NCBI RefSeq assembly: GCF_003991205.1
Contig: NZ_RXOZ01000037.1
Coordinates: 62,001-126,000 of the forward strand
Reading direction: 5' to 3'
DNA: 64,000 bases
Source: Georgenia sp. SYP-B2076
GTDB lineage: Bacteria > Actinomycetota > Actinomycetes > Actinomycetales > Actinomycetaceae
Shown: one piece after another, positions 47,604 through 51,290 of the stretch
Layout of the letters: each line of letters begins with the position of its first letter
How positions within the stretch are numbered: position 1 is the stretch's first letter
Made by a program: the position numbers and the translations under genes
Notes under the pieces: generated by a model
Databases searched by the model: none
The model's input: the letters and a program-made list of their open reading frames with translations, nothing else
Told to the model about the DNA's origin: nothing

Positions 47604-48608
47604 GTGACTACCTCCATGCTCCCCCTGGGCGACTCCGCGCTCGAGGAGCGGCTCCTGCCGCTCCTGTCCGACGTCGAGACCCGGCTCCGCGCGGCCGTCG
47701 TCGGCGCGGACGAGCTCGTCGACGCCCCGGCCGCCCACCTCGCCGCCGCCGGCGGGAAGCGGCTGCGCCCCCTGCTCACCCTGCTGACCGCCGAGCTCGG
47801 CGGGGGCAGCAACGAGCAGGTGCTCCGCGCCGCCGTCGCGGTCGAGCTGACCCACCTCGCCACGCTCTACCACGACGACGTCATGGACTCCGCGCCCGTG
47901 CGCCGCGGCGCTCCCGCCGCCCACGAGGTCTGGGGCAACTCCGTGGCCATCCTGACCGGGGACCTGCTCTTCGCGCGGGCCTCGCAGCTGGTCGCCTCCC
48001 TCGGCGCCCACGCCGTGCTCGTGCACGCGGAGACCTTCGAGCGGCTGTGCCTGGGCCAGCTCCACGAGACCCTCGGGGCCGCCGACGGCGAGGACCCCGT
48101 GGAGCACTACCTGGGCGTGCTGGCCGACAAGACCGGCTCGCTCATCGCCGCGTCGGCGCGCTACGGCGCCACCTTCTCCGGGGCCTCGGACGAGGTCGCG
48201 GAGATCCTCGCGCGCTACGGCGAGAAGGTCGGCGTCGCGTTCCAGCTCGCCGACGACGTCATCGACCTCTCCGCCGACGCCGCCACCACCGGCAAGACGC
48301 CCGGCACGGACCTGCGCGAGGGCGTGGACACCATGCCCGTGCTCCTACTGCGCCAGCGGGCCGCAGCCGGCACCCTGGACGACGACGGCGCCGCCGTCCT
48401 CGGCCGCCTCGGCGCCGACCTCCGCTCCGACGACGCGCTGCGCTCCGTCGTCACCGGCCTGCGCAACCACGAGGTGGTCGCCCAGGCGCGCGAGCTCGCC
48501 GGGACCTGGGCCGCCGACGCCGTCGCCGAGCTCGAGCCGCTGCCGGCGGGGGAGATCAAGGACGCGCTGGGCACCTTCGCGGGGATGCTCGTCGACCGCA
48601 TGGCCTGA
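47604..48608 (+). CDS. Long-chain polyprenyl diphosphate synthase
   Basis: A 334-residue all-trans prenyltransferase, the likely maker of the menaquinone tail. Both aspartate-rich motifs are present: YHDDVMD near residue 90 and QLADDVID near 215. The GGKRLRP motif is near 49 and the lysine in ADKTGSL near 172. It resembles GrcC1/HepT/IspB-type synthases; chain length cannot be read from sequence. Starts at GTG 47595, GTG 47604 or ATG 47616 are all possible and no ribosome site decides. It sits directly after nuoN. Confidence 0.88.
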   Translation: MTTSMLPLGDSALEERLLPLLSDVETRLRAAVVGADELVDAPAAHLAAAGGKRLRPLLTLLTAELGGGSNEQVLRAAVAVELTHLATLYHDDVMDSAPVRRGAPAAHEVWGNSVAILTGDLLFARASQLVASLGAHAVLVHAETFERLCLGQLHETLGAADGEDPVEHYLGVLADKTGSLIAASARYGATFSGASDEVAEILARYGEKVGVAFQLADDVIDLSADAATTGKTPGTDLREGVDTMPVLLLRQRAAAGTLDDDGAAVLGRLGADLRSDDALRSVVTGLRNHEVVAQARELAGTWAADAVAELEPLPAGEIKDALGTFAGMLVDRMA

Positions 48609-48672: not shown

Positions 48673-48674
48673 AC

Positions 48675-48740
48675 GAGGTAGAACAGTTGCGGTGAGCTAG
48701 GAGATTTGAACCTTCTATCTCGCCGCGACTGTTCTATCTC
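48675..48740. repeat. 66-bp four-half-site palindromic element, copy A
   Basis: Four 9-mers related to GAGATAGAA lie at 48675, 48694 (forward), 48713 and 48732 (reverse), each separated by exactly 10 nt. The half-sites are GAGGTAGAA, GAGCTAGGA, TTCTATCTC and TTCTATCTC. The element can fold into a 28-bp stem (23 matches) with a 10-nt loop. A second copy at 50027 matches 52 of 66 positions in the same orientation, with one gene between them. Confidence 0.9.
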
Positions 48741-48870
48741 GGGCGGCCATCCAACGGAATGTCGTTGGGCGGCGCCGCGTGCGGGTGCCCACCCACTGGG
48801 CGCCTGTGTGCACAGCGTGGATCGCGCTCACCGATCCACAGTCCAACCCGGCGGGCGACCGGCCGGCGAC

Positions 48871-48876
48871 CACGAT
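48871..48876 (+). promoter_or_regulatory. Candidate leaderless -10 (CACGAT)
   Basis: CACGAT ends 6 nt before ATG 48883, and no ribosome site is visible. It is one of the weaker members of the leaderless set. Confidence 0.3.
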
Positions 48877-48882
48877 CAGCGC

Positions 48883-49983
48883 ATGGCCTTACAGATCCTC
48901 CCGCGTCCGCTGCCACAAGTCACCTTCTCGCGGGACGTGGGCGCCGACGCCATCCGCCCAGAACATCGATCGGGCGAGCTGGTGCGGGTTCGGTCGGGCG
49001 CCTACATCCACGACGTTCCCGACGCGGCGCCCTGGCAGCGGCGCGAGCGTGAGGCCCTGGGCCGGTGCGTCGCCGTCGCTCGCCAACTGACATGCGAGTT
49101 CGTCTTCAGCCACATCTCTGCCGCCCTGATCCACGGCTGCTGGATCTGGCAGCTGGACGACAAGACGCACATCACCCAACCTCTCAACCCCAGCACCGGC
49201 AGCTCTGCGGACGTTCGGCGCCATGTGGCCGAGGTGCCGCCCGGTGATGTCGTCGTCGTCAACGGGCTGCGGGTCACCGCCCTGGTGCGCACGATCGAGG
49301 ACTGTGCGCTGACGATGCACCCGCGTGACGCTCTGGTCATCGCGGACAGTGCTCTACGCATACTTGCCGCGCCGAGTCGTCGAGAACGTGCCAACGCCGC
49401 GGGTCGCGTCGAGCGGGTGCGACGGGAACTGGTCGAGAGGCTCGCTCGCAAACCGGGCGCTCGTGGGATCGTGCGTGCCCGCGCCGTCGTCAAGTACGCG
49501 GATGCGTTCTCGGAGTCAGCGTGGGAGACCGTGCTGCGCTGGATCGCGGTCTCCCGCGGCCTTCCGGCGCCGGTGACCCAGTACCGCGTCGTCACACACC
49601 GCGGCACGTACTTCAGCGACCTGGCGTGGACCTTCCGTACGGTGGATCCCGGCGGCCGGACGCTTCGGGAGTGGACCCTCCACGTGGAGTTCGACGGCCG
49701 GATCAAGTACGCCAACGGCGGCGCCGACGCCTCACGTGCCATGGTCGACGAGAAGCTCAGGGAGGATGCGATCCGTGCGCTCGGGGACGATGTGCGCCGG
49801 TTCGACCAGGGTGATGTGCGAGACGAGGAAGGCACCTTCCGGCGACTGCGTGCGGCGTTCCCGGCGGCGATGGTCACGGCGCTCCGCCCGGTCGCCGGCC
49901 TGATGGTGCCCGGAGGCCCCGAGGCCCGGAGACGGCCCCGTCACGCGAGTCCGGGAACACCCGGCCACCAAACGCCGCGCTGA
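48883..49983 (+). CDS. PD-(D/E)xK nuclease-like protein with AbiEi-like N-terminus
   Basis: A 366-residue protein. Residues about 15-60 resemble the winged-helix start of AbiEi-type proteins (ELVRVRSGAYIHD). The middle has VRTIEDCALTMHPRDALVIADSALR. Residues about 205-320 look like the DUF559/Vsr-type restriction-endonuclease fold: ESAWE, FSDLAW, HVEFDGRIKY (E, D and K) and EKLREDAIRALGDDVRRF. Codon use is less GC-biased than neighbouring genes, suggesting acquisition. It is alone between two copies of a 66-bp palindrome. Nuclease activity is inferred; no toxin partner is adjacent. The start may extend to 48706, but that would run into element A. Confidence 0.7.
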   Translation: MALQILPRPLPQVTFSRDVGADAIRPEHRSGELVRVRSGAYIHDVPDAAPWQRREREALGRCVAVARQLTCEFVFSHISAALIHGCWIWQLDDKTHITQPLNPSTGSSADVRRHVAEVPPGDVVVVNGLRVTALVRTIEDCALTMHPRDALVIADSALRILAAPSRRERANAAGRVERVRRELVERLARKPGARGIVRARAVVKYADAFSESAWETVLRWIAVSRGLPAPVTQYRVVTHRGTYFSDLAWTFRTVDPGGRTLREWTLHVEFDGRIKYANGGADASRAMVDEKLREDAIRALGDDVRRFDQGDVRDEEGTFRRLRAAFPAAMVTALRPVAGLMVPGGPEARRRPRHASPGTPGHQTPR

Positions 49984-50026
49984 CCCGTGGAGGTGGCGGG
50001 CGGGCGTGGATCTGGCTGCACCTGGC

Positions 50027-50092
50027 GAGGTAGAAGAGTTGCGGCGAGTCAGGGCGTTTGAAGGTTCTAGCTCGGCGCAAACGTTCTATCTC
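50027..50092. repeat. 66-bp four-half-site palindromic element, copy B
   Basis: Half-sites GAGGTAGAA (50027), GAGTCAGGG (50046), TTCTAGCTC (50065) and TTCTATCTC (50084) keep the same 10-nt gaps as copy A. The outer half-sites are identical to copy A and the inner ones have drifted. It lies 43 nt after the stop of the nuclease-like gene. Confidence 0.9.
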
Positions 50093-50196
50093 GGCGGGGT
50101 GGGCCGCGGGGCCGCGCCTGATGCCGACGGCGATCTCGCCCACCGGCGTCGTGATGCTGAGCGCGTCTCCGGCCCGCCACCACGACGCTGGGCGCC

Positions 50197-50228
50197 ACGT
50201 CAGGCGCGAGTGCTGTACGTCAGGCGCG
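50197..50228. repeat. 12-bp direct repeat across the rarD stop
   Basis: ACGTCAGGCGCG occurs at 50197-50208 and 50217-50228. The second copy contains the minus-strand stop codon of rarD. Confidence 0.7.
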
Positions 50229-51290
50229 CGCCCACCGCGGGCGGCTGCGCACGCCGTCGAGGGTGAGGATCGCGATGGCCGCCCACACCAGGGCGAAGCC
50301 GGCCCACCGCTCCGGCGGCATCGGCTCGTGGAAGACGAGCACACCCACGAGCAGCTGGAGCACCGGGGTGATGTACTGCAGCATGCCCACCACGCTGAGC
50401 GGCAGGCGGCGGGCTGCGGCGCCGAAGAGCAGCAAGGGGACGGCGGTCAGCGGGCCCGAGACCGCGAGGAGCACCATGTGCGAGACCCGCTCCGGCCCCG
50501 CCGCGCCGAAGGTGCTGGCGCCGGACTGCGCCAGCCACAGCAGGTAGGCCACCGCCACGGGGAACAGCACCGTCGTCTCCACCGCCAGGCCGGGCAGGGC
50601 GGCCACAGTGCGCCCCACCCGGTTCTTCACCAGCCCGTAGAGCCCGAAGGTCACCGCGAGGCTCAGCGCGATCCACGGCAGCTCCCCGTAGCCGACGACG
50701 ATGACGACGACGGCGAGCCCGCCCACCGCGGTCGCCACCCACTGCAGCGGCCGCAGGCGCTCGCCCAGCACCGCCACGGCGAGCAGCACCGTCACGAGCG
50801 GGTTGATGAAGTACCCCAGCGCCGCGTCGACCGTGTGGCCCGAGTTGACGCCGTAGACGTAGATGAGCCAGTTGGCGGCCACCAGCACCCCGGCGAGCGC
50901 CAGCGTGGCCAGCGTGCGCGGCCGGCGCAGCGCCCGCGCGTACGGGCGCATCTGCCGGGTCAGGAGCAGCGCGAGCAGGCAGAAGCCGAGGCTCCAGGCG
51001 GCCCGGTGCGCCACGATCTCGACCGCGCCGGCGGGCTCGAGGAGGCGGAAGTACAGCGGGAACGCGCCCCAGAGGAGGTAGCAGCCCAGGCCGAGCGCCA
51101 GCCCCACGCGGTCCATTCCCGGACGCGCCGCGGGCCCCGCGTCGGCGGCGGCCGGTGCGTCGGTGGGCGGGGCGGGCGCGGCGGGCCGCGCGTCGGTGGC
51201 TCCGCCGTCGTGCGCCGCGGCGTCGCCCCGTCCGGTGGGGCCGGGGGCGAGCGGGCCCGGGGAGGCGGGGGGCGTGCGCGGACGATTCAC
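50220..51290 (-). CDS. rarD: RarD-type EamA family transporter
   Basis: A ten-helix drug/metabolite-superfamily permease of the RarD (chloramphenicol-sensitive) branch. The conserved start is GLGCYLLWGAFPLYFRLLEPAGAVEIVAHRA, with ALGYFINPLVTVLLAVAVLGERL further on. The substrate is unknown. GTG 51290 gives 356 residues with a 58-residue Pro/Ala-rich N-terminus, and minus-strand CAGAGT lies 7 nt before it. ATG 51116 gives the family-typical 298 residues but has no ribosome site. Confidence 0.85.
   Translation of the reverse strand: MNRPRTPPASPGPLAPGPTGRGDAAAHDGGATDARPAAPAPPTDAPAAADAGPAARPGMDRVGLALGLGCYLLWGAFPLYFRLLEPAGAVEIVAHRAAWSLGFCLLALLLTRQMRPYARALRRPRTLATLALAGVLVAANWLIYVYGVNSGHTVDAALGYFINPLVTVLLAVAVLGERLRPLQWVATAVGGLAVVVIVVGYGELPWIALSLAVTFGLYGLVKNRVGRTVAALPGLAVETTVLFPVAVAYLLWLAQSGASTFGAAGPERVSHMVLLAVSGPLTAVPLLLFGAAARRLPLSVVGMLQYITPVLQLLVGVLVFHEPMPPERWAGFALVWAAIAILTLDGVRSRPRWARA

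Follow-up and report, generated by a model that had tools for sequence, protein, structure and literature searches.

What is a single nuclease-like gene doing between two copies of the same palindrome? The question is raised by a locus of the actinobacterium Georgenia sp. SYP-B2076, within a stretch of 64,000 nucleotides (C37:62001-126000 of the 4.28-Mb genome) that we analyzed as a whole and refer to as the window. Here, two copies of an imperfect palindrome, elements A and B, enclose a gene whose product combines an AbiEi-like N-terminus with a PD-(D/E)XK-like C-terminal domain. Our answer is that the window probably contains one unit of a system resembling repetitive extragenic palindromes (REPs) and their REP-associated tyrosine transposases (RAYTs), built on an unrelated enzyme and with no RAYT. 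We also lean, if only slightly, towards a broader proposal, in which actinobacterial AbiEi-nuclease fusions form a second, independently evolved bacterial REP system, each fusion using nuclease activity and repair to spread or maintain across the genome the half-site array or palindrome that belongs to it, while half-site specificity drifts jointly in brackets and solo copies. The parts of the locus are as follows (window positions):

48883..49983, plus strand: gene for a 366-amino-acid protein, AbiEi-like N-terminus and PD-(D/E)XK-like C-terminal domain, with the start codon chosen from the homolog alignment
48674..48742, no strand: element A, upstream bracket, two forward and two reverse half-sites on a 19-bp lattice
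48675..48683, plus strand: A half-site 1, GAGGTAGAA
48694..48702, plus strand: A half-site 2, GAGCTAGGA
48713..48721, minus strand: A half-site 3, GAGATAGAA on the minus strand
48732..48740, minus strand: A half-site 4, GAGATAGAA on the minus strand
50026..50094, no strand: element B, downstream bracket, oriented as A and 80% identical to it
50027..50035, plus strand: B half-site 1, GAGGTAGAA
50046..50054, plus strand: B half-site 2, decayed, GAGTCAGGG
50065..50073, minus strand: B half-site 3, GAGCTAGAA on the minus strand
50084..50092, minus strand: B half-site 4, GAGATAGAA on the minus strand

Elements A and B form a direct repeat, 80% identical across 69 nt, and A is an imperfect inverted repeat whose 33-nt arms are 82% complementary. 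Half-sites start at 48675, 48694, 48713 and 48732 in A and at 50027, 50046, 50065 and 50084 in B, in exact steps of 19 bp. A first-pass annotation of this DNA had described two copies in the same orientation, alike at 52 of 66 positions and with identical outer half-sites, which our comparison confirmed, and exactly one gene between them, where we also found a single plausible gene (48883-49983). It had further counted four half-sites per copy with 10-nt gaps; the 19-bp period held, but in B the second forward site (GAGTCAGGG) has decayed badly, which leaves this copy with three good half-sites. The pattern GAGNTAGAA-N10-GAGNTAG had three matches in the window, compared to a mean of 0.00 over 100 shuffles of the window.

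Is such a bracket peculiar to one locus? We surveyed the best 80 of at least 429 relatives, drawn from a collection of 84,980 species, comparing approximately 600 bp on each side of the gene in both direct and inverted orientation. Matching repeats on both sides with a score >30 were found in 49 of 80 loci (79 relatives and the window; L034, whose upstream region was too short, was left out), but in none of 311 control genes, which were other genes in the same loci taken from crude gene calls. When upstream and downstream flanks of different loci were paired, 10 of 790 pairs scored >30, all 10 within one genus. At a lower threshold of 22.4, the counts were 57 of 80 loci, 7 of 311 control genes and 18 of 790 cross-locus pairs. 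These 80-locus counts, and the set of 57 loci scoring >22.4, include the flanks of L032, L054, L062 and L070 with stop codons before correction; with corrected stop codons for these four and with L034 entered as a miss, 57 of 81 loci scored >25. A chance repeat was rejected as an explanation of A and B on the basis of the window shuffles and the absence of control genes bracketed at >30.

The bracket architecture thus recurs around homologs, as the first-pass annotation had suggested checking, and a random occurrence of the element with respect to this family, one of the two outcomes that would have counted against that annotation, was not borne out. Its sequence, however, does not recur. Five congeneric homologs (L018, L021, L022, L026 and L027) had paired flanking repeats that differed in sequence from those of the window, and a sixth (L015) had a short flanking pair only. 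A half-element scan of the 84,980 species, from which the own genome was possibly left out, found nothing, and the paired-half-site pattern had no match in 58 other relatives searched, 8 of them congeners. With these two results, one element sequence common to many lineages was ruled out; the element sequence is lineage-specific and the architecture is general. The first-pass annotation had covered one locus, and lineage-specific elements, solo copies and relatives with tandem arrays lay beyond its view.

Several other brackets were observed along the way. In congener L019, the gene lies within a 34-bp direct repeat (1325-1358 and 2664-2697) that has one mismatch and is not obviously palindromic. 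The own genome contains a frameshifted paralog of the window gene (C23:226845-227700; L011 and L012), with 59 and 64% identity in two pieces, which is bracketed by a 67-bp direct repeat of a sequence unlike A and B. In Actinomyces ruminicola (L055), the gene is bracketed by an unusually long direct repeat of 142 bp with 92% identity, possibly a recent event.

Most of the lineage-specific elements are built on a common lattice. We scanned the elements of the 57 loci scoring >22.4 for internal repeats at offsets from 13 to 31, requiring a match of at least 8 of 9 bases. The offset was 19 or 20 bp in 41 of the 47 upstream and 41 of the 44 downstream elements that had such a repeat. In shuffled elements the mean best internal match was between 6.0 and 8.0 of 9; for the longest elements a good match by itself is therefore weak evidence, and the signal lies in the clustering at 19 and 20. 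The upstream element was more palindromic than all 50 of its own shuffles in 45 of 57 loci. Of 57 loci, 50 had at least six half-sites, and the distance from one half-site to the next was 19 or 20 bp in 149 of 331 cases, both counted from corrected stop codons, with a motif chosen for most occurrences and with no shuffle. A common layout on each side was forward-forward-reverse-reverse, and most elements were approximately 65 to 75 bp long. In four Isoptericola loci (L048, L049, L053 and L056), the brackets are instead tandem arrays of a GCGAGGTAG-like half-site at 20-bp intervals, forward upstream and reverse downstream, which makes the lattice more general than the palindrome. The core of this half-site resembles GAGGTAG of the window, even though identity to the window protein is just 33 to 37% for the L048 and L049 proteins. 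Tandem repeats were also present in the reading frame upstream of a more distant homolog in L023 (less clearly in L024), with the repeated peptide GPACERSLCCHGQG, and are perhaps a further form of upstream array.

Elements that could be compared within a genome had additional regularities. In two Cellulosimicrobium genomes, all 40 complete elements (19 and 21, many of them orthologous) had one 19-bp and one 20-bp arm, and the element there therefore has polarity. In Promicromonospora citrea, spacers varied among elements, but the two arms of the same element agreed at 7.00 of 9 positions compared to 5.29 when shuffled, a value that none of 2000 shuffles reached. This agreement suggests that elements are copied by folding back or that hairpin formation is selected.

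The protein itself was described by the first-pass annotation as an AbiEi-like N-terminus joined to a PD-(D/E)xK-like domain, and this description was borne out. PADLOC AbiEi models matched the window protein and all seven congeneric homologs tested (8 of 8). We aligned the window protein with the proteins of 72 of the 80 loci (alignment A2, 73 members), setting aside eight shorter matches (L052, L053, L056, L064, L065, L092, L096 and L107). Among the 73 members, Pfam matches were to AbiEi_4 in 10, the restriction enzyme-like MTES_1575 in 6, AbiEi_1 in 4 and DUF559 in 3. The window protein alone had no Pfam match below an E-value of 0.05 and no NCBIfam match, and a profile search of solved structures returned a single match at chance level (E-value 0.95). 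Seven residues (R136, E215, D246, E269, G272, K275 and R293) are invariant in all 73 members, and their spacing presumably fits a PD-(D/E)XK active site. We base the nuclease assignment on the Pfam matches of the relatives and on the invariance of E215, D246, E269 and K275, and regard the window protein as a probable DNA-binding nuclease.

The family gene is under purifying selection, with a ratio of nonsynonymous to synonymous substitution rates (dN/dS) of 0.17 to 0.37 in all 10 pairs of family genes, and it was less conserved than the median neighbor in all 12 measured pairs (15 were tried and three gave no value). Identity of the N-terminus was 0.65 in pairs with the same element and 0.45 in pairs with different elements, compared to 0.73 and 0.62 for the nuclease part. 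This contrast would fit the N-terminus as the reader of the half-site; the pairs are not independent, and we do not rely on it.

Do half-sites follow the protein? Elements of two loci were considered alike at a score >25, and 1592 of the 1596 pairs among the 57 loci could be aligned. Elements were alike in 19 of 32 pairs of proteins with at least 60% identity and in none of 1560 pairs below it. Two sets of units, L059 with L073 and L084, and L069 with L093, are not syntenic, and the units of each set have a common element. At another place, L069, L092 and L106 have the same neighbors, as does L071 on the right (on the left its contig breaks off); when elements were compared, the listed pairs among these four scored no more than 12.2 to 12.8. 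Three pairs were measured at this place, with 49 to 56% identity for the family gene and 80 to 93% for the neighbors. The gene and its two brackets thus either changed jointly in place or were jointly replaced.

Elements also occur away from the gene. Six were found in the own genome, A and B plus four solo copies (one in C8, one in C12 and two in C33), which rules out an element tied to the window gene alone. One solo element lies between chorismate mutase and AMP-binding enzyme genes, and one adjoins an Indigoidine_A-family gene. The best-preserved solo copy (C33:163986-164054; L009:9940-10100) is flanked on either side of its palindrome by extra half-site-like sequence, as might result from outward growth of the array.

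Solo copies were also detected in other genera, where they are cognate to the local bracket. The Cellulosimicrobium half-site pair had 20, 10, 22 and 4 matches in the four genomes of this genus that use it and none in Oerskovia, and the reversed pattern had no matches. Whole-element searches of the four genomes gave 66-67, 34-44, 74-75 and 27-29 matches, numbers that count palindromes on both strands, include the brackets and contain some matches that are not elements; our estimate is approximately 14 to 37 elements per genome. The Promicromonospora pattern had 49 matches in P. citrea, from which we extracted 25 complete elements including the two brackets, and 9 and 2 matches in two related genomes, the latter of which has a different bracket of its own. 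The Pseudonocardia half-site pair had 6, 18 and 9 matches in the three genomes that have this half-site in their bracket and none in three genomes with a differing bracket. In Gordonia soli, two of three matches flank the gene and one is solo, and four other genomes had none.

The 63 elements of two Cellulosimicrobium genomes and P. citrea were located mainly between genes: 23 in same-direction gaps, 21 in convergent gaps, 2 in divergent gaps, 3 at edges and 14 inside predicted genes, compared to 1097 of 1260 random positions inside genes and to 15 divergent spaces among the 125 intergenic spaces of those loci (both from crude gene calls). The median distance of solo elements from a 3' end was 17 bp (44 measured). 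One element that C. funkei and C. cellulans have in common is missing at the corresponding place in two further Cellulosimicrobium genomes. A terminator-like hairpin (GGGCCCGGRACC/GGTYCCGGGCCC) that follows the upstream gene was kept in all four Cellulosimicrobium genomes (L194 and L245-L247), with or without the palindrome.

At the place of the window unit itself, the host genes are the following:

47613..48608, plus strand: left neighbor, polyprenyl synthetase gene
50220..51098, minus strand: right neighbor, EamA-family transporter gene, convergent with the left neighbor; the position of the start codon is uncertain and could be further right

In all eight congeners compared, the gap between these two genes is 4 to 251 bp and the unit is absent, and the best half-element match there had 13 to 15 mismatches of 27. 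The congeneric homologs of the window gene are located elsewhere. The first-pass annotation had proposed comparing empty sites and had named, as one of two findings that would speak against it, relatives lacking the gene and keeping both elements as ordinary terminators; the eight congeners keep neither element. Because all eight sites are empty, the palindrome-gene-palindrome arrangement was most simply gained as one unit in the lineage of the window. The alternative is eight losses.

Which known system does this resemble? The closest likeness is to REP/RAYT pairs (REPtrons), REPINs and TIRtrons, with which the units share a bracket of two palindromes, dispersed cognate palindromes near 3' ends, coevolution of gene and repeat and a fast-evolving gene. 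The available part of one report describes RAYT genes as flanked by two REPs, with coevolution of the two, a rapidly evolving gene and a connection to how abundant the cognate REP is (PMC2817692); all of these features have parallels in the units described here. REPINs are presented in an excerpt of another as inverted REP doublets that form hairpins (PMC3116915), and in this they resemble our elements. A third source, in its accessible sections, places REPs mainly in unidirectional and convergent gene gaps near 3' ends, reports CGTC REPs without a dedicated enzyme and gives the known REP enzyme as an HUH tyrosine transposase (PMC3733652). The differences are also clear. REPs are 20 to 40 bp long with a GTAG or CGTC tag, whereas our elements are approximately 65 to 75 bp on a 19/20-bp lattice, and the listed element sequences have no such tag common to all loci. 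The protein was not recognized as an HUH/Y1 (IS200/IS605-type) transposase: no Y1 transposase model was among the Pfam matches of the 73 members, and HxH was absent from their invariant and nearly invariant positions, with a loose H-hydrophobic-H tripeptide somewhere in 30 of 73. Because the protein does not have the feature that defines a RAYT, the system would work like a REP system and not be a member of it. The analogy to RAYTs and REPs that the first-pass annotation had drawn was upheld on most tests, including recurrence, dispersed palindromes, a fast-evolving gene and empty sites.

Three other systems share parts of the arrangement. Tn7 is a transposon whose ends carry arrays of transposase binding sites; the units are similar in having site arrays at both ends, inverted in several Isoptericola loci, and differ in that no transposase or integrase was recognized, the window unit has no cargo and no target-site duplication was seen. 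The PD-(D/E)XK nucleases of the DUF559/MTES_1575 type share the C-terminal domain, as judged from the Pfam matches of the relatives and the invariant acidic and lysine residues; in our family this domain is fused to an AbiEi-like part and tied to a cognate repeat family, and the window protein itself has no match to them. The AbiE type IV toxin-antitoxin systems share the AbiEi-like N-terminus, and the two inverted pairs of sites are like those of Rv2827c, whose four-site operator is described in the available portion of PMC7319586 as two inverted pairs. In contrast to AbiE, the window unit has no toxin gene (AbiEii nucleotidyltransferase) between its brackets, and in contrast to AbiEi and Rv2827c, the C-terminus of the protein is nuclease-like and the sites lie upstream and downstream of the gene as well as elsewhere in the genome; that portion of PMC7319586 has nothing comparable to the downstream bracket or to the solo copies. 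We found no description of a partnership between an AbiEi-nuclease protein and palindromes in the open PubMed Central literature, a scope that leaves preprints and most subscription journals outside.

In the mechanism that we propose, the AbiEi-like part would read a half-site of approximately 9 to 10 bp that recurs at intervals of 19 to 20 bp, usually as forward-forward-reverse-reverse, upstream and downstream of the gene. The PD-(D/E)XK-like part would nick or cut at the element or process the palindrome hairpin, and the palindrome would be copied when the break is repaired or replicated through, either alone, giving a solo copy, or with the gene, giving a new unit. Half-site binding by the AbiEi-like part is likely because AbiEi and Rv2827c bind inverted repeats at their own promoters, according to the part of PMC7319586 available. 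DNA binding, cleavage and copying or mobilization driven by the protein are what we infer from the arrangement of gene and elements, as the first-pass annotation had done for binding and mobility.

A number of observations weigh against this reading. No pair was found at a threshold of 25 in 24 of 81 loci, five congeneric homologs (L016, L017, L020, L023 and L024) had no paired flanking repeats, and shifted windows in the same loci, scored for direct repeats only, exceeded 22.4 in 14 of 361 cases with a maximum of 34.2. The match between half-site and protein is incomplete, as 13 of 32 pairs with at least 60% identity had no common element (for example, L068 and L083 at 71%), and much of it can be put down to shared descent, because 16 of the 19 like-element pairs are syntenic as well. 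Many solo elements are old, since 13 of 17 fetched C. funkei places were orthologous to an element place in C. cellulans (one being that of the gene itself). No strand-transfer domain was recognized by Pfam in the 73 members, and no target-site duplication or transposition intermediate was seen, with empty-site relatives too distant for exact borders. No relative was found in plasmid and phage collections (window protein as query) or in viral contigs (alignment A1 as query). Together with the lack of a PHROGs match (alignment A1), the last results also led us to reject carriage by a phage or plasmid.

How, then, do other explanations fare? The best of them is a chromosomal autoregulator of the AbiEi type that binds both brackets, perhaps looping or insulating its gene, with solo copies as its regulon or as chromosome-organizing sites, no mobility, and a nuclease-like fold that serves something else. 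Such a protein would account for the many solo elements at orthologous places and for the four Geodermatophilaceae records that have the same neighbors and differing brackets at one locus, as expected of a resident coevolving protein. Furthermore, AbiEi-type antitoxins bind inverted repeats at their own promoters, and the four sites of Rv2827c in two pairs come near the layout of one bracket; however, the sites of AbiEi and Rv2827c are promoter-only in the available part of PMC7319586. We consider this explanation unlikely, as only 2 of 63 solo elements were in divergent gaps, the places of promoters, compared to 15 of 125 spaces, the putative nuclease residues are invariant in 73 of 73 members, and both the presence or absence of the whole window unit and the non-syntenic units with like elements (L059/L073/L084 and L069/L093) point to movement.

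Movement could also be by homing. In a homing or gene-drive unit, the nuclease would cut solo palindromes elsewhere and the unit would be copied in by homologous recombination, the solo copies being landing pads. The unit does look like a single palindrome into which a gene has been set, the same genomes contain cognate solo sites, and congeneric homologs are at places other than that of the window. However, the eight empty sites of the congeners contain nothing element-like (13 to 15 mismatches of 27) and no sign of an element that was split, and a nuclease cutting its own brackets would excise its own gene unless restrained; we regard homing as quite improbable. Ordinary terminators or gene-end hairpins unconnected to the protein are very improbable indeed, for although palindromes near 3' ends, often in convergent gaps, and the arm-to-arm match of P. 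citrea (7.00 of 9 versus 5.29), which pairing requires, would suit them, they leave unexplained the same sequence on both sides of the gene, its following of the protein and its absence where the half-site differs, several Isoptericola brackets are tandem arrays and not palindromes, and a terminator-like hairpin stays at the site without the element.

We therefore return to a REP-like system built on an AbiEi-nuclease fusion as the probable nature of the window unit. An unrelated nuclease-like family in many actinobacterial genera appears to share the type of partnership known between REPs and their enzyme. If true, this would provide a function for a gene family whose member in the window has no Pfam or NCBIfam name, and would explain a class of intergenic palindromes in actinobacteria. 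It would also offer a ready system for studying joint changes of specificity in a DNA-reading protein and its dozens of sites, since the DNA next to each gene reveals the half-site.

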